NCBI RefSeq assembly: GCF_014650575.1
Contig: NZ_BMVF01000005.1
Span: forward strand, 1 to 64,000
Length of the DNA: 64,000 nt
Direction: 5' to 3'
From: Streptomyces naganishii JCM 4654
Lineage (GTDB): Bacteria > Actinomycetota > Actinomycetes > Streptomycetales > Streptomycetaceae
In this document: positions 21,950 to 53,634 of the stretch, in pieces
How positions within the stretch are numbered: position 1 is the stretch's first letter
How the letters are laid out: the number at the start of each line of letters is the position of its first letter
Notes under the pieces: generated by a model
What the model was told of the DNA's origin: nothing
Seen by the model: only the letters and a program-made list of their open reading frames with translations
Database searches by the model: none
Position numbers and translations under genes: made by a program

Positions 21950-22531
21950 ATGAGATCAGGGCAGTCGGCCGCCGGCGGTGGCGCGGCCGTGACGGCGTAC
22001 GTGACCCGGCTCGACGCGCCACGACTGGCCGCCCGCGTCGAGGAGTTGGCCCGGCTGCTCACCGACACCGTGGCCGACGGCGCCTCCGTGGGCTTCCTCG
22101 CACCCCTCGGCCACGCCGAGGCCGCGCGCTGGTGGAGGGAGAGGGTGACCGGCGTGGCCGAGGGACGGCTCGCCGTGTGGACGGCACACGACGGCGACGG
22201 CCGCACGGTCGGCACGGTGAGCCTCGCCTTCCCCGACAAGCCCAACAGCCGCCACCGCGCCGAACTGGTCAAGTTGATGGTGCACCGCACCGCCCGCGGC
22301 GCGGGCCTCGGCCGGCGTCTGCTGACCACCGCCGAGCGCGCGGCGGCCGAGGCCGGAGTCACCCTGCTGCACCTGGACACGGAGACCGGGAGCCCGGCCG
22401 AGCGCCTGTACGACTCGGCGGGCTGGACCCGCGTCGGCGCGATCCCCGACTATGCGGCCGACCCGGGCGGAGTCCTGCGGCCGACCACCCTGTACTACAA
22501 GCAGATCGGGGCGGACGTCCGCGGCGGCTGA
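21950..22531 (+). CDS. GNAT-family N-acetyltransferase
   Basis: The 193-aa protein has the GNAT acetyl-CoA loop in MVHRTARGAGLGRRLLTTAERAA (about 104-126), preceded by the beta-strand core TVGTVSLAF and followed by LLHLDTETGSPAERLYDSAGW. The substrate is unknown; small amines or antibiotics are common. The ATG at 21950 has only a weak ribosome-binding site. A later start would remove non-conserved residues. Confidence 0.88.
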   Translation: MRSGQSAAGGGAAVTAYVTRLDAPRLAARVEELARLLTDTVADGASVGFLAPLGHAEAARWWRERVTGVAEGRLAVWTAHDGDGRTVGTVSLAFPDKPNSRHRAELVKLMVHRTARGAGLGRRLLTTAERAAAEAGVTLLHLDTETGSPAERLYDSAGWTRVGAIPDYAADPGGVLRPTTLYYKQIGADVRGG

Positions 22532-22561
22532 CTGTCAGTGGCACGCACTAGCGTGCGTGAC

Positions 22562-22921
22562 ATGCCGGATGCCGAAGACGTACGCCGTATCGCCCTGTCC
22601 CTGCCGGACACGGCGGAGAAGATCGCCTGGAGCATGCCCACGTTCCGGGTCGGGGGGAAGATGTTCGCCACCCTGCCGGAGGACGAGTCCTCCGTCGCCG
22701 TGCGCTGCCCCAAGGAGGAGCGCGACGAACTGGTCCTCGCCGAGCCGGAGAAGTTCTGGATCGCGGGCCACGAGGCCCAGTTCGCGTGGATCCGGGTGCG
22801 CCTGGACGCGCTGGAGGACGAGGGCGAGCTGCGCGACATCCTCGCCGACTCCTGGCGGCAGGCGGCTCCGTCCCGGCTGCTGGAGGCCCATCCCGGGCTG
22901 GGTCTGTCCACAGGGCGCTGA
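22562..22921 (+). CDS. MmcQ/YjbR-family protein
   Basis: The 119-aa protein matches the MmcQ/YjbR fold (CyaY-like, implied to bind DNA or nucleotides): DVRRIALSLPDTAEKIAWSMPTFRVGGKMFA at the N-terminus, then RCPKEERDELV and a C-terminal helix pair. ATG 22562 is 7 nt after a -10-like TAGCGT (22549-22554), so translation is probably leaderless. GCACGC-ACTA-GCGTGC (22541-22556) is a perfect 6-bp inverted repeat overlapping that box. The cellular role of the family is not established. Confidence 0.88.
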   Translation: MPDAEDVRRIALSLPDTAEKIAWSMPTFRVGGKMFATLPEDESSVAVRCPKEERDELVLAEPEKFWIAGHEAQFAWIRVRLDALEDEGELRDILADSWRQAAPSRLLEAHPGLGLSTGR

Positions 22922-23014
22922 AAGGCCGGTGGCGTTGTCGGTGCGCCGTGGCATGATCCGAAGGCGGGTCGGGGCAGGCGTGGGCCGGGGAGGGCCAGAC
23001 AGGGGGTGCCGGGG

Positions 23015-24427
23015 ATGAGCGGCGGGACGTCGTCGCAGTCGTCGCCAGAGGAGGCGGCGGGGGAGCAGGACAGGGTCGCGCGGGCGGCCGTGGACCGCGC
23101 CGGCCGGCGGACGGTGTGGTCGCGGGACTTCGCGCTCTTCTTCGTGGCCCGGGCCGTCGCCCGGCTCGGCGACACCATGCTGCCCGTCGCCCTCGCCGCG
23201 GGCCTGCTCGAGCACGGGTACGGCGCGGGCGCGGTCGGCCTCGCCATGGCCTCCACGGCCGCCGCCTTCGCGGGACTGGTGGTCTTCGGCGGGGTGATCG
23301 CCGACCGGTTCAGCACCCGCAGGCTGATGATCGGCGCCGACCTGGTGCGGCTGGGCACCCAGTCCCTCGCGGCCGCCCTCTTCTACTCCGGGCATGTGGT
23401 GCTCTGGGAGATCTGCGCCATCGGCTTCGTCAACGGCGTGGCCGGTGCGGTGTTCCAGCCGGGCGTGGCCAGTACGGTGCCCCGGCTCGCCTCCGACATC
23501 CAGGCGGCCAACGGCGCCATACGCATCGCCGAGTCCGCCGCCCAGCTCGCCGGGCCCGCCGTGGCCGGCCTGCTGGTCGGCTTCGCCTCGCCCGGCTCGG
23601 TGTTCGCCGCCCACGCGGCCACGTACGCGGTCAGCGCCCTGTGCCTGCTGCTGCTCCGCCTGCCCGGGCTCGCACCGGGCGGACGCGGCAGACCCGACGC
23701 GCTGGGCGTGCCGGGCACGTTCGGCACAGGTCCGCACGAGCACCGTACGGGCACCTTCAAGGCGGATCTGGTCGAGGGCTGGCGGGAGTTCAGGGCGAGG
23801 ATATGGCTGTGGGGCGTCATAGCCGTCTGGTGCCTCTACATGATCGCGGTCTGGGGACCGACCGTCCCGCTGGTGGCCACCGAGGTGGTCCAGCAGCACG
23901 GCCCGCGCGCCTACGGCCTGGTCAACTCCGCGCTCGGCGCCGGCACCGTCGTCGGCGGCTTCCTCGCGCTGCGGCTGCGCCCCCGCCGGATGCTGCGCGC
24001 CGGCGCGGTGGCCCTGTTCGCCTTCGCCGGATTCCCTGCGGCGGTCGGCGCCGGCCTCGGCGTGCCCGTCATGGCGGCGGTCGCCGCGGTCGCCGGGGCC
24101 GGGATGTCGTTCTGGGGCGTGATGTGGGCGACCAGCGTCCAGACGCAGGTCCCGCCGGACGTCCTCAACCGCATACACGCCTACGACGTGGCGGGCTCCC
24201 TCGCCATGATGCCCGTGGGGCAGGCCCTCGCCGGGCCCGCCGCCGCGTTCCTCGGCGCCGGGCACGTCCTGCTGGTGGCCGGGGCGATGAGCCTGGTCGT
24301 CCCGGCCGCGCTGCTCGCCGTCCCCGCGATACGCGACCTGATACGCGCCGACGCGCACACCCTCGCCCCCGGCGACGGTGCCGGTACCGGTGCGGCGCGC
24401 GGGCGGGTGCGCCCGGCGGGACGCTGA
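23015..24427 (+). CDS. Major facilitator superfamily efflux protein (MFS_3/MefA-like)
   Basis: The 470-aa protein has about 12 hydrophobic segments, the first near residues 35-60 after a charged N-terminus of about 30 residues. FGGVIADRFSTRRLMIGADL is the MFS motif A variant between helices 2 and 3. The closest pattern is the actinobacterial MFS_3 group of putative drug exporters. ATG 23015 is favoured by AGGGGGTG 6 nt upstream; GTG 23006 is an alternative. The gene ends 103 bp before a tRNA-Pro. The substrate is unknown. Confidence 0.9.
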   Translation: MSGGTSSQSSPEEAAGEQDRVARAAVDRAGRRTVWSRDFALFFVARAVARLGDTMLPVALAAGLLEHGYGAGAVGLAMASTAAAFAGLVVFGGVIADRFSTRRLMIGADLVRLGTQSLAAALFYSGHVVLWEICAIGFVNGVAGAVFQPGVASTVPRLASDIQAANGAIRIAESAAQLAGPAVAGLLVGFASPGSVFAAHAATYAVSALCLLLLRLPGLAPGGRGRPDALGVPGTFGTGPHEHRTGTFKADLVEGWREFRARIWLWGVIAVWCLYMIAVWGPTVPLVATEVVQQHGPRAYGLVNSALGAGTVVGGFLALRLRPRRMLRAGAVALFAFAGFPAAVGAGLGVPVMAAVAAVAGAGMSFWGVMWATSVQTQVPPDVLNRIHAYDVAGSLAMMPVGQALAGPAAAFLGAGHVLLVAGAMSLVVPAALLAVPAIRDLIRADAHTLAPGDGAGTGAARGRVRPAGR

Positions 24428-24530
24428 CGCCACGGTCTCGTGGAGCGAAAGGCGTGCGCGAGGACCGATCCGAGTGCGGTATGGTTTTCCTGCGCGTTCG
24501 GCCAGGGGAAAGCCCAGGTCAGACGGGCAA

Positions 24531-24604
<74 letters not shown>

Positions 24605-24693
24605 CTTGCGAGGACGCGGGTCAGCGTGTCAGAGGTCGTATCAGGGCAACCTGTACGGCCTTTGTTCGTTTTCCGGCAACCGGCGAAACGTTC

Positions 24694-24711
24694 ACATCAG
24701 ACGTCTGATGT
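24694..24711. promoter_or_regulatory. Perfect 18-bp palindrome: operator of the sialic-acid GntR regulator
   Basis: ACATCAGACGTCTGATGT at 24694-24711 is a perfect inverted repeat 55 bp before the GTG of the GntR gene. It recurs with one arm mismatch at 25907-25924 in front of the catabolic operon. The layout is typical of FadR-subfamily GntR sites. I infer that the GntR protein binds both sites. Confidence 0.85.
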
Positions 24712-24766
24712 CTCATCTTGGTAGCCTGGGCAGGCCGCACGAGGAACGAGGAGAGGGAGGCATCAG

Positions 24767-25552
24767 GTGAACGTGTCGCGTCCGCCGCGTCCGCAGGAGT
24801 TCCGGACGGCGGCCCGGCCGTCGCTGCGCCAGGAGGTCGCCGAGGCGATCAAGAGCTACATCCTCGACAACCGCCTCAAGCCCGGCGACCCGCTGCCGTC
24901 CGAGGCCGAGCTGTGCACGGCCCTGGGCGCCAGCCGGTCCAGCATCCGCGAGGCGGTCAAGACCCTCGCCGTACTCGACATCGTGGAAGTGCGGCGCGGC
25001 CACGGGACGTACGTGGGCCGGCTCAGCCTCTCCGCGCTCGTCGAGGGACTGGCGTTCCGGGGGCTCCTCGAACCCAAGGACGACTTCCGGATCCTTTCCG
25101 AACTGGTCGAGGTCCGCGAGCTGATCGAACGCGGCCTCGCCGAGCGCATCCTGGCCACGCTGGCCCCCGAGGACCTCGACGCGCTCGACACCCTCGTCGA
25201 CGAGATGGACCAGCGCGGCGCCCACGACGGCGACGGTTTCGCCGCCTGCGACCGCTCCTTCCACGAGCGGCTGGTGCGACGGCTGGACAACAAGCTCGTC
25301 GCCCAGCTCTCCCTGGCCTTCTGGGACGTCTACGCCATCGTCGCGCCGCACCTCGAGGGCATCTCCGCGGAGGACGAGGCGGGCACGATCGCCGACCACC
25401 GCGCCATCGTGCGGGCGGCCAGAGCGGGCGACACCGAGGGCTTCGTGCGCGCCCTCCGCGACCACTACGCCCCCGTACGCCGCAGGCTGACCGAAGCCCG
25501 GGCCACGATGGAGACGGCGCAGCCCGCCGGCACGGACACACCGAGCACCTGA
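24767..25552 (+). CDS. FadR-subfamily GntR regulator of the sialic-acid operon (NanR-like)
   Basis: The 261-aa protein has a winged helix-turn-helix (about 20-75: LPSEAELCTALGASRSSIREAVKTL) and an FCD ligand domain (about 100-225: LVEVRELIERGLAERI, FHERLVRRLDN with a metal-type His). GTG 24767 has GGGAGG upstream. The gene precedes the catabolic operon with about 395 bp between and is flanked by its likely operator; the same motif stands before the operon. By analogy with NanR it should repress the operon until sialic acid or a derivative binds the FCD domain. Confidence 0.9.
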   Translation: MNVSRPPRPQEFRTAARPSLRQEVAEAIKSYILDNRLKPGDPLPSEAELCTALGASRSSIREAVKTLAVLDIVEVRRGHGTYVGRLSLSALVEGLAFRGLLEPKDDFRILSELVEVRELIERGLAERILATLAPEDLDALDTLVDEMDQRGAHDGDGFAACDRSFHERLVRRLDNKLVAQLSLAFWDVYAIVAPHLEGISAEDEAGTIADHRAIVRAARAGDTEGFVRALRDHYAPVRRRLTEARATMETAQPAGTDTPST

Positions 25553-25906
25553 CCGGGACGCCGGCTCGGCACCCCGGCACCCCGGCACTCCGGCGCCCCC
25601 GGCACCCCGACGCTCCCGTCAGCCCAACCGGCGGCGAGCCACGAGTCACGGCCCGGAGTCCCGCCTCACACACCAGCAGCAAGGTGGCGGTCGGGCTTTC
25701 GTGGCTCTGATCTTCTTCGGCTGCCGGGGAGCGGTCCTGGTGAGGTGGCCGTACACCGTCGACCGGGACTCCCGAAGGAGAAAGCGGAGCGCGGCGTTGA
25801 GGTCCCTGCGTGCTCCATGTCCGGGCCGGTGAGGTGCTCGTCGGTCTGCTGGTGTGTGACTCAGCCCACTCTTGACCACCCCCCGTCGGCCATGCGTAAG
25901 GTTCGG
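25553..25906. other. Intergenic region with short tandem repeats and a possible transposase remnant
   Basis: At 25563-25619 an 8-bp CCGGCACC-like unit repeats about six times. On the minus strand, 25879-25646 encodes a frame with GHGARRDLNAALRFLL, which faintly recalls the C-terminal zinc-finger region of IS200/IS605 OrfB (TnpB) proteins but lacks the cysteines. I treat it as an uncertain, degraded fragment, or chance. The right part carries the promoter of the catabolic operon. Confidence 0.35.
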
Positions 25907-25924
25907 ACGTCAGACGTCTTACGT
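25907..25924. promoter_or_regulatory. Second copy of the GntR operator, before the sialic-acid operon
   Basis: ACGTCAGACGTCTTACGT (25907-25924) matches the upstream palindrome in all central positions and is itself symmetric at eight of nine pairs. It lies 24 bp before the operon's first ATG (25949), with CACGGAGTAG as ribosome-binding site between. A repressor bound here would block initiation. Confidence 0.8.
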
Positions 25925-25948
25925 GTCAGTGTCACGGAGTAGAACCCC

Positions 25949-26908
25949 ATGCCCTTGCCCACGCCCCTGCGCGGCGTCGTACCGCCCGTCTGCACCCCCC
26001 TCGACGAAGCCGGCGAAGTCGACACGGCCTCCCTGTCCCGGCTGGTCGAGCACCTGATCGCCGGGGGCGTCCACGGGCTATTCGCCCTCGGATCGACCAG
26101 CGAGGTCGCCTACCTCAGCGACGAGCAGCGGGGCGTCGCCCTGGAGACGGTGGTGAACACGGCCGACGGACGCGTGCCGGTCCTCGCGGGCGTCATCGAC
26201 ACCACCACGGCCCGCGTCCTGGACCACGCCCGCGAGGCGGCGCAGCTCGGCGCGGACGCCCTGGTGGTCACCGCGCCCTTCTACACCCGCACCCACCCCC
26301 GGGAGATCGCCGGGCACTTCCGCCGGATCCGCGAGCGGGTGGACCTGCCCCTGTTCGCCTACGACCTGCCGGTGTCCGTGCACAGCAAGCTGTCGCCCGA
26401 ACTCGTGCTGGACCTCGCGGCCGACGGCACCCTGGCCGGGGTCAAGGACAGCAGCGGGGACGAGGGTTCCCTGCGCCGGCTGCTCCTCGCGCTGGGCGGC
26501 CGCGAGGGCCGCGCCTCGGGACCGGTTCCGGGCTTCTCCGTCCTCACCGGCTCCGAACTGACCGTCGACGCGGCCCTGCTCGCCGGCGCGGACGGTGTGG
26601 TCCCCGGCCTCGGCAACGTCGACCCCGCGGGCTACGTCCGCCTCTACGACGCCGCCCGCTCCGGCGACTGGCCGCTGGCCGCCAAGGAGCAGGAACGGCT
26701 CGCCGCCCTGTTCGACCTGGTGGACGCGGGCCCCGAGACCGACATGGGGCGGAGTTCGTCCGCGCTCGGCGCGTTCAAGGCGGCGCTGCGCCTGCTGGGC
26801 GTCATCGCCTGCGGCGACACCGCGTTCCCGCAGATCCAGCTGGGCGCGGCGGCCGTGGCCGAGGTGGACGCCCGCCTGCGCGCGGCCGGACTCACCCCCG
26901 TGCGATGA
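25949..26908 (+). CDS. nanA: Dihydrodipicolinate synthase/N-acetylneuraminate lyase family protein (probable NanA)
   Basis: The 319-aa TIM-barrel aldolase has the Schiff-base lysine K166 (GVKDSSGD), the catalytic tyrosine Y138 (FAYDLPVSVHS) and GSTSE at 48-52. DapA, NanA and keto-deoxy-sugar aldolases share this fold. I favour sialic-acid lyase (Neu5Ac to ManNAc plus pyruvate) because the gene heads an operon with a ROK kinase and a NanE-type epimerase. YDLP instead of YNxP and an SHS-type transporter also fit. The ATGA overlap with the ROK gene couples them. A different keto-acid substrate remains possible. Confidence 0.85.
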   Translation: MPLPTPLRGVVPPVCTPLDEAGEVDTASLSRLVEHLIAGGVHGLFALGSTSEVAYLSDEQRGVALETVVNTADGRVPVLAGVIDTTTARVLDHAREAAQLGADALVVTAPFYTRTHPREIAGHFRRIRERVDLPLFAYDLPVSVHSKLSPELVLDLAADGTLAGVKDSSGDEGSLRRLLLALGGREGRASGPVPGFSVLTGSELTVDAALLAGADGVVPGLGNVDPAGYVRLYDAARSGDWPLAAKEQERLAALFDLVDAGPETDMGRSSSALGAFKAALRLLGVIACGDTAFPQIQLGAAAVAEVDARLRAAGLTPVR

Positions 26909-27891
26909 CCGCCGCCCCGGATCCCGGCGCCGGGCCGGTCATCGGGCTCGACCTCGGCGGCACCAAGATCGCTGCCGCCCTGGTCGGGCCGGACGGCACC
27001 GTGCTGCGCCGGCACACCCGCCCGACACCCGCGCGGGCGGGGGCGCGGGCCGTGCTCGACGCGCTGGCCGGCGCGGCCCGCGAGGTGGACGACGGCGCCC
27101 GGGCGATCGGCGTCGCCGCCGCGGGCGTGGTCGACCCGCGCGGCGGTGTCGTCACCAGCGCCACCGACGCGATCACCGGCTGGGCCGGCACCGCCCTGGC
27201 GGCCGGGCTGCACGAGCGCACCGGTCTCCCGGTCGCCTGCGACAACGACGTACGCGCCACCGCCGCGACCGAACTCGCCGCCCTCCCGCACCCGGACGCC
27301 TCCCTCCTCTACGTCGCCGTGGGCACCGGAGTCGGCGGGGCGGTCGCGGTGGACGGCCGGATGCTGCACGGCAGCGCGGGCATCGCCGGTCACCTCGGCC
27401 ACGTGCCGAGCCCCGAGGCCGCGGACCTGCCCTGCACCTGCGGCCGCCGCGGCCACCTGGAGGCGATCGCCTCGGGCCCCGCGATCACCGCGCTGTACGA
27501 GCGGCTGAGCGGACGGCCGGCCGCACGGCTCCAGGAGGTCGCCGAACGCGCCGGCGCGGGCGACGCCGACGCCCGCCGGGCGATCACCACCGGGGCCCGC
27601 GCCACCGGACGCGCGACGGGCGGCCTGGCCAACGCGCTCGGCCCGCACCGCGTCGTCGTGGGCGGCGGCGTGCCCCACATCGGCGACCTGTACTGGTCGG
27701 CGCTGACCGACGCCTTCACCGCCGAGCTGATGGCCCCCCTGCGGCACCTGCGCCCGGTACCGCCGCGCCTGGGCGCCGACGCCGCCGTACGAGGAGCCGC
27801 CCTGCTCACCCGCACCGAGCCCCTGCACGGCACGCCCGCCCGGCACACGGGCCGAGCCGTCCCACCGCACACTCCCGGAGGACCCGCATGA
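26905..27891 (+). CDS. nanK: ROK-family sugar kinase (probable N-acetylmannosamine kinase)
   Basis: The 328-aa protein has the ROK ATP motif GLDLGGTKIAAALV (14-27), the catalytic aspartate region VACDNDVRATAATEL, the phosphate loop VAVGTGVGGAVAVDG, and the zinc region CTCGRRGHLEAIASGP. The zinc site has His where the third Cys (CxCGxxGCxE) usually stands. Between nanA-like and nanE-like genes with stop-start overlaps at both ends, it most likely phosphorylates ManNAc to ManNAc-6-P. Glucose or another hexosamine cannot be excluded. Confidence 0.87.
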   Translation: MTAAPDPGAGPVIGLDLGGTKIAAALVGPDGTVLRRHTRPTPARAGARAVLDALAGAAREVDDGARAIGVAAAGVVDPRGGVVTSATDAITGWAGTALAAGLHERTGLPVACDNDVRATAATELAALPHPDASLLYVAVGTGVGGAVAVDGRMLHGSAGIAGHLGHVPSPEAADLPCTCGRRGHLEAIASGPAITALYERLSGRPAARLQEVAERAGAGDADARRAITTGARATGRATGGLANALGPHRVVVGGGVPHIGDLYWSALTDAFTAELMAPLRHLRPVPPRLGADAAVRGAALLTRTEPLHGTPARHTGRAVPPHTPGGPA

Positions 27892-28565
27892 ACCCGTCCG
27901 CAGTCGACGCCGTACGAGGGCGGCTGATCGTCTCCTGCCAGGCACCGCCCGGGGACCCGATGCGGGACACCGCGACCCTGGTCCGGCTCGCCCGGTCGGC
28001 CGCCGCCGGCGGGGCCGCGGGCGTCCGCGTCAACGAGCCCGAGGTGGTGGCCGCCGTCGCCGCCGCCGTCGACCTGCCCGTGATCGGGCTGTGGAAGGAC
28101 GGCGACACCGGCGTCTACATCACCCCGACCGTGCCCCACGCCCTCGCCGTGGCCGAGGCCGGCGCGCACGTCGTCGCCGCCGACGCGACGGCGCGGCCCC
28201 GCCCCGACGGCAGCTCCTTCGCCGACCTCGTGGCGGCCGTGCACGCCGCCGGCGCCCTGGTCATGGCCGACGTCTCCACCCTCGACGAGGGCCTCACGGC
28301 CGCCCGGCAGGGCGCCGACCTCGTCTCCTCCACCCTGTCGGGATACGTGCCCGGCTCCCCGCGGCAGAGCGGCCCCGACCTGGACCTGGTGGCCGCCCTC
28401 GCCCGCGAGAGCGGCACCCCGGTCGTGGCCGAGGGCCGTATCAGCACCCCCGAGGAGGCCGCCGCCGCGCTCGCCCTCGGCGCCCACAGCGTGGTCGTCG
28501 GCACCGCGATCACCGCCCCCACCGCGCTCACCCACCGCTTCGTGACACACCTCGCCCGCCCGTAG
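27888..28565 (+). CDS. nanE: N-acetylmannosamine-6-phosphate 2-epimerase (NanE)
   Basis: The 225-aa TIM barrel has the NanE features: GGAAGVRVNEPEVVAAV near 55-71 (after SAAA), LPVIGLWKDGDTGVYITPT with the catalytic lysine, VMADVSTLDEG, and VVAEGRISTPEEAAAALALG followed by VVVGTAITAP. It would convert ManNAc-6-P to GlcNAc-6-P, feeding NagA and NagB. The ATG overlaps the ROK stop (ATGA). This gene is the strongest single indicator of sialic-acid catabolism in the cluster. Confidence 0.92.
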   Translation: MNPSAVDAVRGRLIVSCQAPPGDPMRDTATLVRLARSAAAGGAAGVRVNEPEVVAAVAAAVDLPVIGLWKDGDTGVYITPTVPHALAVAEAGAHVVAADATARPRPDGSSFADLVAAVHAAGALVMADVSTLDEGLTAARQGADLVSSTLSGYVPGSPRQSGPDLDLVAALARESGTPVVAEGRISTPEEAAAALALGAHSVVVGTAITAPTALTHRFVTHLARP

Positions 28566-28625
28566 GCGCGGCACCCCCACCCGAGAGCACTCGACGGCGA
28601 GTGCGTCCGGCATCCTGGAGTCACC

Positions 28626-30092
28626 GTGCACCACACCACCGCGCCACCGCAGACGCCCTGGTACCGCCAGGTCGGCCGAAGCCAGTGGAAGTCCTTCTTC
28701 GCCGCCTGGATCGGTTACCTCCTGGACGGCTTCGACTTCGTGCTGATCACGCTGGTGCTGACCGAGATCAGCGCCGACTTCCACCTCGACACGGTCCAGG
28801 CGGCCAGTCTCGTCTCGGCCGCCTTCATCACCCGGTGGCTCGGGGGCGCCCTGCTCGGCGCCCTCGGCGACCGCTTCGGCCGGAAACTGTCGATGGTGGT
28901 CAGCATCCTGCTGTACTCCCTGGGCAGCTTCGCCTGCGGATTCGCCTGGGACTACACCAGCCTGTTCGCCGCCCGGCTCGCCATCGGCATGGGCATGGCC
29001 GGGGAGTACTCGGCCAGCGCCACCTACGTCATGGAGAGCTGGCCCGTGCACATGCGCAACCGGGCCAGCGGCTTCCTGATCTCCGGCTACTCCGCGGGCA
29101 CGGTCCTGGCCGCCGAGGTCTACAAGTGGGTCGTGCCGGCCCTCGGCTGGCGGTGGATGTTCTACCTCGGGCTGATCCCGGTGGCCGTCGCGCTGTGGAT
29201 GCGCCGCGCGCTGCCCGAGGCCGCCGACTGGCAGGCCTCGGTCGCGGCAGGGGACCGGCGGCCCAACCCGTTCCGCCCGCTGTTCGCCACCCCGGCCGCG
29301 GCGGCCCTCAACCTGGTGCTGGCGGTCGCGGCCACCGTCTCGCTCTTCGCGGTCTTCACCCCGCTCGGCGACGGACTCGTGCCGGTGCTGTCGGTCGTGG
29401 CCGGAGCCTGCCTGATCGCCTTCGCCGTGCAGCTCGGCGGCCGCCGCGGCTGGCCGCTGTACGTGTCGATGATCGTGACGATCTTCTTCGCGTTCCTGTA
29501 CTCCTGGCCCATCCAGGCCCTGCTCCCCACCTACCTGAAGACCGACCTGGGCTACGACCCCGGACAGGTCACCGACGCCCTGTTCTACGCGGGCTTCGGC
29601 ACGATGGCCGGGTGCTGGCTCGCCGGGTTCGCGGGCGACCGGTTCGGCACCAGGAAGGCGTACGCCGGAACGCTGCTGGCCTCACTGCTCTTCGTCTTCC
29701 CGGTCTTCGCGGTCCGCGACAGCCTGCCGCTGCTCGGCGTGCTGCTGTTCGTGCTCCAGGCCACCAGCTTCGGCATCTCCGGCCTGCTGCCCCGCTACAT
29801 CGGCGGCCACTTCCCGACCCACACCCGCGCCGCCGCCCTGGGCTTCACCTACAACGTGGGCGCCCTGGGCGGCGCGGTGGCCCCGGTCCTCGGCGCCCAC
29901 CTCGCCTCCGGCATGGACCTGGGGCGGGCGCTGGCCGTCCTGACCTTCGCCGGGACGATGATCGTGGTGCTCCTCGTCGGACTCGACGTGCCCGCCCGGC
30001 TGGGCCGGCTCCTCGACCCGGACGCGGCGGCCGATCACCTCGTGACGGAGCCCGGGCGCGGCGTCACGTCCGCGCGGGAGACCGCCAGATAG
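28626..30092 (+). CDS. nanT: MFS transporter of the sialate:H+ symporter (SHS/NanT) type
   Basis: The 488-aa protein has 12 predicted helices. The MFS signature LLGALGDRFGRKLSMVVS lies between helices 2 and 3, and IGYLLDGFDFVLITLVLTE in helix 1 is typical of the SHS and aromatic-acid symporter group. GTG 28626 follows TGGAGTCACC. It is 60 bp after nanE on the same strand, so it likely imports the substrate of the operon, by proton symport. Its 3' end overlaps the convergent COG4705 gene by 58 bp. Confidence 0.85.
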   Translation: MHHTTAPPQTPWYRQVGRSQWKSFFAAWIGYLLDGFDFVLITLVLTEISADFHLDTVQAASLVSAAFITRWLGGALLGALGDRFGRKLSMVVSILLYSLGSFACGFAWDYTSLFAARLAIGMGMAGEYSASATYVMESWPVHMRNRASGFLISGYSAGTVLAAEVYKWVVPALGWRWMFYLGLIPVAVALWMRRALPEAADWQASVAAGDRRPNPFRPLFATPAAAALNLVLAVAATVSLFAVFTPLGDGLVPVLSVVAGACLIAFAVQLGGRRGWPLYVSMIVTIFFAFLYSWPIQALLPTYLKTDLGYDPGQVTDALFYAGFGTMAGCWLAGFAGDRFGTRKAYAGTLLASLLFVFPVFAVRDSLPLLGVLLFVLQATSFGISGLLPRYIGGHFPTHTRAAALGFTYNVGALGGAVAPVLGAHLASGMDLGRALAVLTFAGTMIVVLLVGLDVPARLGRLLDPDAAADHLVTEPGRGVTSARETAR

Positions 30093-30877
30093 CCGACGAG
30101 GGCGAGGATGGCGGCCGTCCAGGCGAGGGTGACCGGGCCGAGGCCCAGGTCGAGCCCGCCCCGGGCGGCCGGCAGCGCCATCCAGTCGGCGATCGAGGCG
30201 CCGAGCGGCCGCGTGATGACGTACGCCGTCCAGAAGGCGGCCACGGCGCCCAGCATGCCGCCGCGGTGGGCGAGGGCGGGCACGCAGATGGCCACACCGA
30301 ACAGGACGACCGAGCCGAGGTAGCCGAACCCCGCCGTCGCGGTCAGGTCGCCCGCCGCGGTGCCGAGCGCGAAGGTGGCCAGCACGGCCGCCCAGTAGAA
30401 CGCCTCCCGGCGGCGGGTGTGCACGCTGTGGATGGACAGGGTGCGCTCGACGGCGTACCAGAGGGCGAAGACGAGGCCCAGGGCGATCATGAAGGCGGGC
30501 GTGGAGACGGTGTAGGGGACGCCGAGGCCCACGTGCAGGACGTCGGCGGCCATGGTGCCGAACACGCTCACCATGACGATGGCCGTCCAGTAGATCCAGG
30601 CCACGTACCGGCGCACGGCGAGCTGCACGACCAGCGCGGCGACAAGGGCGAGGCCACCGAGGGCCACCGCCGGGACCGGGCCGAGCAGACGGGCCAGGTA
30701 GTCCGAGGCGGTCTCGCCCATGCCGGTGGTCAGCACCTTGATCACCCAGAACCAGACGGTCACCTCCGGCACCTTGTTCGCCATCGCGCGGACCCGGGCA
30801 CGGGTGGCGGTCCGGTGCGGCGGCAGGCCTTGGGGGTGATCGTCGCGGCGGTCGTCGAGGACGTGCTCTGGGCTCAT
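30035..30877 (-). CDS. COG4705-type integral membrane protein
   Basis: The 280-aa protein has about eight hydrophobic segments in a repeated pattern: KVPEVTVWFWVIKVLTTGMG near the N-terminus and TAGFGYLGSVVLFG later. This matches the COG4705 membrane family, of unknown function. An internal duplication of the helix set is characteristic. ATG 30877 gives no clear ribosome-binding site; an in-frame ATG at 30784 is a second option. Its 3' end runs 58 bp into the convergent MFS gene. Confidence 0.85.
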   Translation of the reverse strand: MSPEHVLDDRRDDHPQGLPPHRTATRARVRAMANKVPEVTVWFWVIKVLTTGMGETASDYLARLLGPVPAVALGGLALVAALVVQLAVRRYVAWIYWTAIVMVSVFGTMAADVLHVGLGVPYTVSTPAFMIALGLVFALWYAVERTLSIHSVHTRRREAFYWAAVLATFALGTAAGDLTATAGFGYLGSVVLFGVAICVPALAHRGGMLGAVAAFWTAYVITRPLGASIADWMALPAARGGLDLGLGPVTLAWTAAILALVGYLAVSRADVTPRPGSVTR

Positions 30878-30980
30878 GCAGCGCACGATCGCATGATCGG
30901 ACGATCTTCTCCCAGCCCCTTTTAACAGGGTTTTGGGAGCTCTGGTGCAGGTGTTGCCCTAGAGGCTCCCGTGGCCCCTG

Positions 30981-31517
30981 TCAGCTCACGAGACCCACGT
31001 GGGCGAGCGCCTGCCTGAGCAGGACCCCGTGTCCGCCGGGCATCTCGCTCCGCACCGCCTCGGAGGCCGCCTCCTGGGGGCTGAACCACACCAGGTCCAG
31101 GGCGTCCTGCCGGGGCCGGCAGTCGCCGGTCACCGGGACGACGTAGGCGAGGGACACGGCGTGCTGCCGCGGGTCGTGGTACGGCGTGATGCCGGCCGTC
31201 GGGAAGTACTCGGCGACGGTGAACGGCTGGAGGGAGGCCGGCACACGGGGCAGCGCCACCGGGCCGAGGTCCTTCTCCAGGTGGCGCAGCAGGGCGTCGC
31301 GCACCCGCTCGTGGTGGAGCACGCGGCCGGAGACCAGGGTCCGGCTGACCGTTCCGTCCGGTCCGATGCGCAGGAGCAGGCCGATGCTGGTCACTTCGCC
31401 GCTGTCGTCGACGCGCACGGGCACCGCCTCGACGTACAGGATCGGCATGCGGGCGCGCGCCGACTCCAGTTCGTCGCTGCTCAGCCAGCCGGGCATGGTT
31501 TCGGTCATGTCAGACAT
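30981..31517 (-). CDS. NUDIX-fold protein with DUF4916 domain
   Basis: The 178-aa protein contains ILYVEAVPVRVD, a basic RVLHHERVRDALLRHLEKDLGP helix and FTVAEYFPTAGITPYHDPRQ, which match DUF4916, a NUDIX-related family. The canonical NUDIX box G-x5-E-x7-RE-x2-EE-x2-G is absent, so hydrolase activity is doubtful. A TATGAT -10 (31529-31524) lies 6 nt before the ATG, predicting a leaderless mRNA. It is downstream of, and on the same strand as, the amidohydrolase gene, with a 25-bp gap. Confidence 0.85.
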   Translation of the reverse strand: MSDMTETMPGWLSSDELESARARMPILYVEAVPVRVDDSGEVTSIGLLLRIGPDGTVSRTLVSGRVLHHERVRDALLRHLEKDLGPVALPRVPASLQPFTVAEYFPTAGITPYHDPRQHAVSLAYVVPVTGDCRPRQDALDLVWFSPQEAASEAVRSEMPGGHGVLLRQALAHVGLVS

Positions 31518-31542: not shown

Positions 31543-32760
31543 TCAGTGGGGGAGATCGGGAGAGTCTGTCGGGTCCGGCGGGCCGGGGAGGCCGGGCGGG
31601 TCCGTGGGGCCGTCGAGACCGTAGACCCGCCGCGCATTGTCGCGTGCCGTCCAGTGGGCGATCCGCAGGGCGTCGTCGGCGCTCAGCTCGTCGGCGTCGA
31701 CCCGTTCCCCGAGCAGAGCGGCCAGGCCCTGGCGGAAGGCCACCGCGCCCAGGTGGTGGAACTCGGCCACCCCGTAGGCGTCGGAGCTGTGCAGCAGTTT
31801 GCGGAACGGGGTGATCTCCAGGGCCTCGGCGAGCACCGCGCCGGCTCGTGCGGGGCCCACGTGGTGCAGGGCGAGGCCCACGTCGAGGTACACCCGCTCG
31901 AACACGGCCGCCAGATAGGCCGCCTGGCGCTGGTAGGGCCAGCAGTGCAGCAGCATGACCGGGATCGTGCCCGCCGTCAGCCGCAGCCAGTCGGTCAGGA
32001 GCGCGGGGTCCGCCCGGTGCAGGCGCAGGTCGGCGTCGCCGAACCCGGTGTGCAGTTGCAGCGGCAGCCCGAGGTCGACGGCCGTCCACAGCAGGTGCCG
32101 TACGAGTACGGGGTCGTCCAGGCGCGAGCCCCCGCGCCCCAGCCAGGCGGCCGCCGCCCGGGTCACCTCCGCCGCGGACGGGCGTGCGGGGTCGAGGGCG
32201 AAGCCGGTGCGGTAGGCGGCCACCGACTTCACCGCCACGACGCCCGGCCGCCGTACGGCTGCCAGCGCCGCCTCGGTGATCACCGCGCCGTACTCGCCGG
32301 GCTCCACACCGCGCGCCGCGACGGCCTCCGCGACGCCCTCCAGCCGTACGACCTCGTACGCCACCGCGTCACCGCCCGCCGCGGCCGCCAGCTCCGCCGG
32401 GGAGGTCAGGGGCTGGGGCGCGTAGCCGGTGTCGACACAGAACACGTGTGTGCCGGAGGCGGCCAGGAACCGCCGGTTGACCTCCGCGGCGCCCAGCTCG
32501 GCGCGCCTGGCCACGTAGGCGTCGGCGGGAGCGTGGCGGGGCAGGTCCAGCACGGGCGCGCAGTGGCGGCGGACGGCCACGCCCACGGGGCTGTCGAAGG
32601 CGGACACGCCGCTGCCGGGCCAGGCCTCGCCCTCGGTGAGCAGCGACTCCAGACCCGGCCGGTCCAGCTCGGCGGTGACCACCCCGTGGCAGTGGTGGTC
32701 CACCAGCGGCAGCGCGGCGAGCGCCTCCCGGACCGGCCCGGCGCCGGATGCGCGGGCCAT
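31543..32760 (-). CDS. Amidohydrolase-superfamily protein coupled to a GlnA3-like enzyme
   Basis: The 405-aa TIM-barrel protein has the metal motif DHHCHG (21-26), LQLHTGFGDADL, MLLHCWPYQRQ and LLHSSDAYG with further His/Asp ligands. It resembles the N-terminal amidohydrolase half of fungal FluG. Its ATG overlaps the stop of the glutamine-synthetase-like gene by one base, so the two are made together. I infer action on the gamma-glutamyl product or on a related polyamine or aromatic amide. The C-terminal 25 residues are low-complexity Pro/Asp. Confidence 0.85.
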   Translation of the reverse strand: MARASGAGPVREALAALPLVDHHCHGVVTAELDRPGLESLLTEGEAWPGSGVSAFDSPVGVAVRRHCAPVLDLPRHAPADAYVARRAELGAAEVNRRFLAASGTHVFCVDTGYAPQPLTSPAELAAAAGGDAVAYEVVRLEGVAEAVAARGVEPGEYGAVITEAALAAVRRPGVVAVKSVAAYRTGFALDPARPSAAEVTRAAAAWLGRGGSRLDDPVLVRHLLWTAVDLGLPLQLHTGFGDADLRLHRADPALLTDWLRLTAGTIPVMLLHCWPYQRQAAYLAAVFERVYLDVGLALHHVGPARAGAVLAEALEITPFRKLLHSSDAYGVAEFHHLGAVAFRQGLAALLGERVDADELSADDALRIAHWTARDNARRVYGLDGPTDPPGLPGPPDPTDSPDLPH

Positions 32761-34160
32761 CAGTACGTCCAGCGGTAGGCCGCCGCGACCCGCTCGTCGT
32801 CCAGGCCCTCCACGGCGGCGATCTCGCCCTCGCGCACCGCCGTCACCGCGTCGGCGAGCACCGGCCCCAGCGCGCCGCGCAGCACCTCGTCCGCGCGGAA
32901 CGCGGCGACGGACTCCGCGAGTGACGTGGGCAGCCGCCGCACCCCCCGCGCCGCCGCCTCGTTCTCACCGAGCCGGGCCGGGTCCCCGGTGGTCTCCTCG
33001 GGCAGGACCGCCGAGCCGTCCATGCCGTCCAGGCCCGCGGCGATCAGGCAGCCGAGCGCCAGATACGGGTTCGCGGCGAGGTCGACCGGCTTGACCTCCA
33101 GGTTGGCGGCCCGGTCGCCGATGCCGTGGGTGCCGGTGACGATCCGTACGGCCGCCTCGCGGGTCTCGCGGCCCCAGGCGGTGAACACGCCCGCCCACTG
33201 TGACGGTCTGAGCCGCAGATGGCTGGCCGGGCTGGGCGCGGTGACCGCGGTCAGGGCGGGCAGCCGCGCGAGCAGTCCCGCGGCGAACGACTCGGCCTCG
33301 GCCGTCATGCCGTAGCGGCGGTCGCCGCCGGAGTGCAGGTTGGTCCCGTCGCGCCAGACGGACAGGTGCACGTGGCCGCCGTTGCCCACGCCCCGCGCCC
33401 GCACGGCGGGGGAGAAGGAGACCCGCAGCCCGTGCCGGCGCGCCACCGCCCGCACGGTCTGCCGCACCAGGACGTTCCGGTCGGCCGCCGCCACCGGGTC
33501 CAGGGCGCCGACCGACACCTCGAACTGCCCGGCCGCGTACTCGGGATGGAGCTGTTCCACGTCCACGCCCTGCGCGGCGAGCGCCGCCAGCAGGTCGGCC
33601 GTGCAGTCGCTCAGCTCCACCTGCCGTACGGCCCCGTAGGCCGGCCCGGACAGCGCGGGCACGAACTCGCCCTCCGGGGCGCTCCCCAGGCCGAAGACCC
33701 ACTCGGTCTCGATGGCCGCCCGGAACGTCAGCCCGCGTCGCCCGGCGTCCGCGACGATCCGGCGCAGGAAGGTGCGGGAGCACCCCGGGTGCGGCTCGCC
33801 CTCCTGCGTGATGCGGTCCACCGGCGCCCAGGCCCAGCCGGGCTGGGCGGAGAGGACGGCCAGCTGGTCGAGGTCCGGGTAGAGCCGCAGGTCGCCGTCG
33901 GGGGAGCCGAGGACGTCGGTGGTGACGATCGAGTCGTCGGCCAGGAAGGTGTCGAAGACCGGGGACATGCCCACGCCCCAGGCCGCGGCCGCCGGCAGCT
34001 TCGCGGCCGGGACCGTCTTGACCCGGCCCACGCCCGCGGTGTCCACGTAGGCCAGGACGACGCCGTGCACACCGCGCTCGGCGAGCTCCGCGGCGAGCGC
34101 GGTGGCCCGCTCCACGTCTCCGGGACGCCCGCCGGGCACGGGGTCGGCGAGGGTGGTCAT
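32760..34160 (-). CDS. Glutamine-synthetase-like enzyme (GlnA3 type; gamma-glutamylpolyamine synthetase candidate)
   Basis: The 466-aa protein has the GS catalytic domain: AIETEWVFGLG, GQFEVSVGALDPVAAAD, the ATP/glutamate loop VGNGGHVHLSVW, and RLRPSQWAGVFTAWG followed by NLEVKPVDLAANPYLALG. The N-terminal beta-grasp (VVLAYVDTAGVGRVKTVP) is short. Position and neighbours match S. coelicolor glnA3 as I recall it, an enzyme that gamma-glutamylates polyamines for their use and detoxification rather than making glutamine. ATG 34160 has GAGGAGG upstream. Coupling to an amidohydrolase repeats FluG in two parts. Confidence 0.87.
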   Translation of the reverse strand: MTTLADPVPGGRPGDVERATALAAELAERGVHGVVLAYVDTAGVGRVKTVPAAKLPAAAAWGVGMSPVFDTFLADDSIVTTDVLGSPDGDLRLYPDLDQLAVLSAQPGWAWAPVDRITQEGEPHPGCSRTFLRRIVADAGRRGLTFRAAIETEWVFGLGSAPEGEFVPALSGPAYGAVRQVELSDCTADLLAALAAQGVDVEQLHPEYAAGQFEVSVGALDPVAAADRNVLVRQTVRAVARRHGLRVSFSPAVRARGVGNGGHVHLSVWRDGTNLHSGGDRRYGMTAEAESFAAGLLARLPALTAVTAPSPASHLRLRPSQWAGVFTAWGRETREAAVRIVTGTHGIGDRAANLEVKPVDLAANPYLALGCLIAAGLDGMDGSAVLPEETTGDPARLGENEAAARGVRRLPTSLAESVAAFRADEVLRGALGPVLADAVTAVREGEIAAVEGLDDERVAAAYRWTY

Positions 34161-34219
34161 ACGGCCTCCTCGGAACTCGGGCGGGCGCGCGCTCGGGCGC
34201 CCGGCGCGCGGGCCTGGCG

Positions 34220-35032
34220 TCAGGGTTTCACGGCGACCGCGCCGAACTGCGGTACGGCGGCGGGCAGGTCGCCCCCGGCGCGCCACTGCGAGCACGGCAC
34301 CAGACCCGGCTCCACCAGTTCCAGACCGTCGAGGAACGCGGCGACCTCGGCGCGGCTGCGGGCGGTGATCGGCGGGGTGGCGTTGGCGTTCCAGAACTCC
34401 ATGGCCGCGACGTTGCCCTCGCCGCCGAGGTCGGCGTCGAAGGTGGGGTGCGTCAGGACCAGGAAGCTGCCCGAGGGCACCGCGGCCATGACGCGCCGCA
34501 CGATGTCGCGGGCCTCGCCGGTGTCCAGCACGAAGTTCAGGATGCCCAGCATCATCACCGCGATCGGACGGGTGAAGTCCAGCGTGGCCGCCGCGCGTTC
34601 GACGATGGCGTCCGGGTCGTGCACGTCGGCGTCGATGTAGTCGGTGACGCCCTCGCGGGTGCTGGTGAGCAGGGTGCGGGCGTGGACGAGGACGATCGGG
34701 TCGTTGTCGACGTAGACGATGCGCGACTCGGGGGCGATGCGCTGCGCTATCTCGTGGGTGTTGTCGACCGTGGGCAGCCCGGTGCCGACGTCGAGGAACT
34801 GGCGCACGCCCCGCTCGGCCGTCAGGTGGCGCACGGCCCGGCCGAGGAACTCGCGGTCCGCGCGGGCGACGTCCCGGATCACCGGGAACATGCCGGCGAC
34901 GTGCTCGCCGACCTGCTGGTCGACCTCGTAGTTGTCCTTGCCGCCGACCCAGTAGTTCCACACCCGCGCGTTGTGCGCCACACCGGTGTTCAGCCTCGGC
35001 GACCCGCCAGGCGGGGTGCGGCTCTCGCTCAC
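34220..35032 (-). CDS. SAM-dependent methyltransferase (DUF574/SAMT family)
   Basis: The 270-aa protein is of the actinobacterial S-adenosyl-methyltransferase-like family (Methyltransf_19). It has NTGVAHNARVWNYWVGGKDN near the N-terminus, motif I FLDVGTGLPT, RIVYVDNDPIVLVHAR and MMLGILNFV. GTG 35032 follows GGAG. Members are abundant in Streptomyces with no established substrate, and the neighbours do not define one. It is divergent from the HAD gene. Confidence 0.9.
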   Translation of the reverse strand: MSESRTPPGGSPRLNTGVAHNARVWNYWVGGKDNYEVDQQVGEHVAGMFPVIRDVARADREFLGRAVRHLTAERGVRQFLDVGTGLPTVDNTHEIAQRIAPESRIVYVDNDPIVLVHARTLLTSTREGVTDYIDADVHDPDAIVERAAATLDFTRPIAVMMLGILNFVLDTGEARDIVRRVMAAVPSGSFLVLTHPTFDADLGGEGNVAAMEFWNANATPPITARSRAEVAAFLDGLELVEPGLVPCSQWRAGGDLPAAVPQFGAVAVKP

Positions 35033-35240
35033 GTCTGCGCTCCACGTTCGTCTCGTTCGCCTGCCGCCCGTTCTCCGTGCTCCGTGCGGCCGTCGACGCC
35101 ATTGTGCCGCCCGGTGATCACGTTGTCTCCGGAATCGGCCGAGCCGCCGGCTGCGGACCCGCGCTTTTCGGCCAGGGCGTGTTTGCCCGTGAGGAGCCGG
35201 GCGTGTTTCCCTGGGGCCGCTCCCAGCACGGAAAAAGGAC

Positions 35241-53553: not shown

Positions 53554-53627
<74 letters not shown>

Positions 53628-53634
53628 CGGTGCG

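Follow-up and report, generated by a model that had tools for sequence, protein, structure and literature searches.

The window analysed here is a 64,000-nucleotide stretch of Streptomyces naganishii JCM 4654 (contig NZ_BMVF01000005.1, positions 1 to 64,000), and it carries at 24767-30092, on the plus strand, a putative sialic-acid catabolic (nan) locus. Open reading frames (ORFs) combined with family searches give the order FadR-type regulator (24767..25552), NanA (25949..26908), ROK kinase NanK (26905..27891), NanE (27888..28565) and NanT-type major facilitator superfamily (MFS) transporter (28626..30092), with the Pfam domains GntR+FCD, DHDPS, ROK, NanE and MFS_1 in this order. The five genes lie in the order and place given in a preliminary description of the stretch, and the stop-start overlaps mentioned there are ATGA at both the nanA/nanK and the nanK/nanE junction. 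A gap of 60 bp separates nanE from the MFS gene. Under the definition of PMC8754123, which looks for nanA, nanK and nanE within 10 ORFs, this is a nan cluster with adjacent and overlapping genes, and the MFS protein, by its NF003024 score, supplies the dedicated sialic-acid transporter of a canonical cluster. Pattern search places a predicted NanR operator, the 18-bp perfect palindrome ACATCAGACGTCTGATGT, at 24694..24711, 5' of the regulator gene; the preliminary description starts at its first base, 24694, without mentioning it. A second predicted operator from the same search, GTCAGACGTCTTAC (25909..25922), ends 27 bp before nanA.

That this is probably a sialic-acid catabolic locus, as had been proposed, is supported by NanE and the MFS protein, which both score above curated cut-offs. 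NanE, assigned as N-acetylmannosamine-6-phosphate 2-epimerase from Pfam, NCBIfam and residues, passes the family test, scoring 263 bits where the NCBIfam cut-off is 189. K70 and E182, the catalytic pair of NanE, are present in the alignment to 4utt. Only this one NanE match is found in the whole-genome search, and by match search the gene is without a stand-in in the genome. NanE exceeds the cut-off in 21/121 genomes, its own included, in keeping with its earlier choice as the most specific marker. NanA-like proteins (E<=1e-80) occur in 237 of the 392 Streptomyces genomes, and NanA alone is therefore a poor marker. The MFS protein, classed by NCBIfam as a NanT-type sialate:H+ symporter, reaches 675 bits against a cut-off of 604 for NF003024, the sialate:H+ symport subfamily, and stays below the cut-off of TIGR00891 (415/553 bits). 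For the ROK-family kinase, assigned as N-acetylmannosamine kinase from Pfam and NCBIfam, the solved NanK 2aa4 ranks second in the PDB, behind a glucokinase. Given twelve other ROK-family matches in the genome, of at most 38% identity, nanK may have stand-ins.

NanA is assigned from Pfam, NCBIfam and solved-structure matches as a DHDPS-family N-acetylneuraminate lyase of the CgNal (DHDPS-like) type. Its top solved matches are 5c54 and 5c55 (E 6e-88), with the entry label dihydrodipicolinate synthase/N-acetylneuraminate lyase, and we take 5c54 to be CgNal, the lyase of C. glutamicum. Its residue numbering agrees with that given for CgNal in the accessible text of PMC5380162, where both cleavage and synthesis of N-acetylneuraminic acid (Neu5Ac) were assayed. 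Among the CgNal-type residues named there (Tyr138, Lys166, GXXGE, Glu198, Thr199, Val212), the window protein keeps Tyr and Lys as Y138 and K166, together with Glu and Val; it differs in Leu204 at the place of Thr199 and in GSTSE in place of the CgNal sequence GSSGE. Both proteins share the DHDPS-like recognition site and are without the Asp-Glu-Ser set of E. coli NanA. The genome encodes two further relatives. One, nanA2 on contig C3, is 76% identical to the window protein (nanA1). The other, at 59%, lies at C12:73976-74911 (L133 1504-2436), with no nan genes around it within its 3.9-kb locus.

The remaining functions are located outside the window. The locus had been called complete, and as far as lyase, kinase, epimerase and importer are concerned this is right. 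The genes for the sialidase, NagA and NagB are at other places in the genome, with nagB at C8:153093 and nagA at C10:68737, both above cut-off. A sialidase had rightly been reported missing from the window: the genome search for sialidase-type (BNR_2) proteins gave no match on the window contig, C5. It gave a strong one on C3 (C3:349010, 97.8 bits against a cut-off of 31.4), which points out the likely place of the missing enzyme. A second match, C9:184262, is just above the cut-off (32.5 bits), and two more fall below it. The C3 protein, which we take to be of family GH33, has 1eut as its top solved match (E 5e-125) and by eye a signal-peptide-like start, and is likely secreted. Around it, the C3 region (L034) holds nanA2, an AXE1-family esterase (L034:6089-7102), a second GntR/FCD regulator, divergent SBP_bac_5 ATP-binding cassette (ABC) transporter genes and, after nanA2, a patatin-like gene recognised by eye. 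The AXE1 protein, whose relatives are acetyl xylan esterases and cephalosporin-C deacetylases, may act as a sialate O-acetylesterase. An AXE1 esterase adjoins the sialidase in many of the mapped Streptomyces nan loci. The sialidase-linked ABC transporter means that the idea of an MFS importer in place of an ABC system fails genome-wide. The C3 region is without matched nanK, nanE or MFS genes, and a search for remnants of nanK and nanE in it found none (best E 0.44 and 2.8). Provided that the contigs are sound, the two loci are at least about 220 kb apart.

What connects them is a sequence pattern. The regulator ahead of the window locus (R1), described before as FadR-type, belongs by Pfam and NCBIfam to the GntR/FCD family. 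In the tree it is one of 31 rows of an actinobacterial NanR lineage that separate from the other 12 rows at 100/100, and it is a predicted sialic-acid repressor. It is 61% identical to the C3 regulator (R2). The pattern RTCAGACGTCTKAY occurs at exactly four places in the 7.8 Mb genome, all within these two loci: before the regulator and before nanA in the window, and on C3 in the two gaps that flank the regulator, one towards the esterase-sialidase-nanA2 genes and one towards the ABC genes. When one mismatch is tolerated, the genome gives 14 strand matches, compared to 2 for the reversed control. The site 5' of R1 and the C3 site between R2 and the ABC genes are identical over 17 unbroken bases, so a repressor that recognises either site would be expected to bind both. 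What can be read directly from the DNA are the gene families, their layout, and the operator-like sites with their distribution; from these we infer that one predicted NanR operator joins the two loci.

A similar site accompanies related regulators in other genomes. We allowed at most two mismatches to TCAGACGTCTGA and searched the 200 bp that precede the matched part of the regulator, after dropping duplicate sequences and rows with less than 150 bp upstream; the other loci in this comparison had been chosen for NanE or NanA. A site was found for 35 of 39 lineage regulators and for three of 25 other FCD regulators, where the groups were split by identity (<47% = other) with two distant rows moved by hand to fit the tree, and where two of the 35 are circular because the motif was defined from the window and L034 (33/37 without them). 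Upstream sequences shuffled in two-base blocks gave site rates of 0.8% and 0.6%. Scoring of the six best candidates per genome, which makes the counts lower bounds, places lineage regulators (E<=1e-60) in at least 49 of 392 Streptomyces genomes and two of them in at least 2/392, the window genome and G019 (C1:3703928 and C1:7224787). A NanR of C. glutamicum has reportedly been described. The pattern is offered as a candidate operator for sialic-acid control in actinobacteria. NanR direct repeats TGGTATAW are given in PMC4494728, and the available passages of PMC4494728, PMC4746261, PMC4974736, PMC6165865 and PMC10570557 contain no actinobacterial NanR operator.

We consider it highly probable that the locus in the window forms the intracellular half of a system for Neu5Ac catabolism, with the C3 locus as the half for sialidase, esterase, ABC transport and NanA2, and with two NanR paralogs acting on one operator. 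Neu5Ac would be imported via the NanT-type MFS protein, NanA would split it into N-acetylmannosamine (ManNAc) and pyruvate, NanK would phosphorylate ManNAc, and NanE would convert ManNAc-6-P to GlcNAc-6-P (phosphates of ManNAc and N-acetylglucosamine), leaving the last steps to the unlinked nagA and nagB. The C3 locus would contribute the likely secreted sialidase, the ABC importer and a second NanA, and the AXE1 esterase would perhaps strip O-acetyl groups. Both loci would be repressed by the two FadR-type, NanR-lineage paralogs through the one predicted operator, until sialic acid or a product lifts repression. Activities, secretion, repression, inducer and cross-regulation are here predicted from sequence. 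A stronger version, for which we see the chances as evenly balanced, is a single regulon divided between two loci far apart (sialidase, esterase, ABC importer and nanA2 in one; nanK, nanE, MFS and nanA1 in the other) with a conserved palindromic NanR operator and two paralogous repressors, in which neither locus alone would be enough for growth on sialoglycans.

Besides the circular rows, several observations weigh against this two-locus system. The best NCBIfam model for NanA is dapA, at 132 bits against a cut-off of 206, and the N-acetylneuraminate lyase models give 91/281 and 83/382 bits, the latter for the E. coli-type lyase (TIGR00683); in addition, GXXGE has serine (S51) instead of its second Gly. 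For NanK, the two N-acetylmannosamine-kinase models score best in NCBIfam but stay under their cut-offs (153/283 and 134/450 bits). NanR NF003011, the best of the 25 models listed for the window regulator, scores 100.5 bits against a cut-off of 260, and in the tree this regulator forms a long branch with an uncertain position within the lineage. The site is absent from 4/39 lineage regulators and present at 3/25 other FCD regulators. The exact pattern is found in a low share of other NanE-positive genomes (4/20, each time <=6 kb from NanE) and in 2/18 NanE-negative ones, in neither as a full palindrome. With NanA and NanK under their equivalog cut-offs, the GSTSE motif, and NanA-like proteins far more widespread than NanE or the lineage regulator, the locus could act on another 2-keto-3-deoxy acid or acylaminosugar, its lyase, ROK kinase and MFS protein being only generic relatives of nan proteins. 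We regard this as very improbable, given that NanE and the sialate-type MFS protein exceed their cut-offs and that the operator and a NanA paralog are held in common with a sialidase operon. The motif position itself varies among NanAs of nan loci: 36 rows from such loci, which represent 34 different sequences, have Ser in 27 cases, including S. albidoflavus L048, and Gly in 8, including L083 and L054, and L067 is unmatched by the motif. The two loci could also be controlled separately, each regulator on its own sites, so that the shared palindrome reflects common descent without cross-talk. The modest identity of R1 and R2, the one altered half of the nanA site, and the lack of such a site in 22/25 other FCD regulators of MFS-type clusters agree with this, whereas the 17-base identity between the R1 and R2/ABC sites does not; separate control seems possible to us but falls short of being probable.

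The left neighbour of the locus is a tRNA gene, tRNA-Pro(GGG) at 24531..24605 on the plus strand (ARAGORN). The relative G106 aligns to window positions 22000-24714 (91.6%) and 30004-31154 (94.1%) with about 60 bases between; the nan locus is absent. Among the 121 genomes searched for NanE, G106 gave no match, and its one NanA-like match scores in the same range as the third paralog. Such an empty site with well-aligned flanks next to a tRNA would fit a recent insertion of the locus at tRNA-Pro, as opposed to an ancestral locus lost in relatives. We find this unlikely. The G106 junction keeps a 17/18 copy of the operator, which suggests loss of the locus. No 15-mer of the tRNA occurs in the window outside two intact tRNA-Pro genes, and the G+C content of the locus (0.744) is that of the window (0.742). 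Loss is the simpler reading, and the system exemplifies how a catabolic cluster can be split up and, probably, disappear while its operator stays in place. The close match at the junction begins about 11 bases outside the DUF347 gene, and a remnant of nanT there is unsure.

Mapping of related nan loci in other Streptomyces genomes, a comparison called for in the preliminary description, shows two main arrangements. The S. albidoflavus type has ABC / regulator - esterase - sialidase - nanA2 - nanK - nanE, and the MFS type has another FCD regulator - nanA1 - nanK - nanE - MFS; the two sets often lie side by side, and further variants are present. In the window genome, the MFS-type set comes with a lineage regulator, and a shortened S. 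albidoflavus-type set lies elsewhere. Compared to the S. albidoflavus cluster (L048), the C3 locus keeps the gene order at 80-89% protein identity but ends after nanA, the one nanE found in the genome being that of the window. G379 (L112), the nearest relative among the genomes searched, has ABC / regulator - nanA - nanK - nanE - MFS in one piece. Its proteins in the window order are 86-90% identical and sites precede both regulator and nanA; the difference is that ABC genes adjoin its regulator, where the window has tRNA-Pro. G136 shows the reverse arrangement: its nanA2 set is full, and nanA and MFS genes form a separate pair, at which no match for nanK or nanE was found.

That sialic-acid use is no textbook trait of Streptomyces, as first suggested, is too strong, as the trait is published (PMC8754123, PMC8749437). 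The available text of PMC8754123 surveys nan clusters in 1,969 actinobacterial species, with a positive rate of 8.37% for Streptomyces, reports fadR in 226/234 Actinomycetia clusters and describes the clusters as often transferred and lost. An MFS transporter is counted in 22 of 255 species, 18 of them ST1, in text that names no genera. For S. olivaceus, the accessible part of PMC8749437 reports Neu5Ac as sole carbon source only for the free-living, nan-bearing lineage; that nan cluster was not compared with the window cluster. Growth of some free-living Streptomyces on sialic acid is restated in the available text of PMC10570557. Because nan clusters and growth on Neu5Ac in Streptomyces are published, the window locus belongs to a cluster kind already described in soil Streptomyces. 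It shares with the clusters described in PMC8754123 the contiguous nanA-nanK-nanE genes, a fadR-type regulator and an MFS transporter in a genus listed as positive; it differs in that the genes for the sialidase, an ABC transporter and a second NanA lie far away, in a locus that shares its operator pattern. For the two-locus split or this operator we found no published description in a literature search that covered mainly open papers, partly in excerpt.

Four one-mismatch places (C1:416680, C5:153451, C9:92988 and C9:93005) were left out of the regulon, as a first look by eye at composition-filtered ORFs gave no sialic-acid genes there. About 2 kb away from the place at C5:153451 is a gene resembling that of 6-phosphogluconate dehydrogenase. 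In the MFS-type clusters L076 and L094, CGTAAGATGTCTTACG stands upstream of the other FCD regulator, and the nanA site of the window resembles half the RTCAGACGTCTKAY-type motif and half CGTAAGATGTCTTACG. The tRNA-Pro(GGG) gene beside the locus is identical to one at 53554-53628, 29 kb apart, and on either side the identity extends exactly as far as the gene border. At the other end of the locus, the MFS gene shares its last 58 bases (30035-30092) with the 3' end of a convergent DUF347 gene on the minus strand (30035-30886). Further downstream, at 31543-35102, an amidohydrolase gene lies beside a gene that by eye is glutamine-synthetase-like, both on the minus strand.

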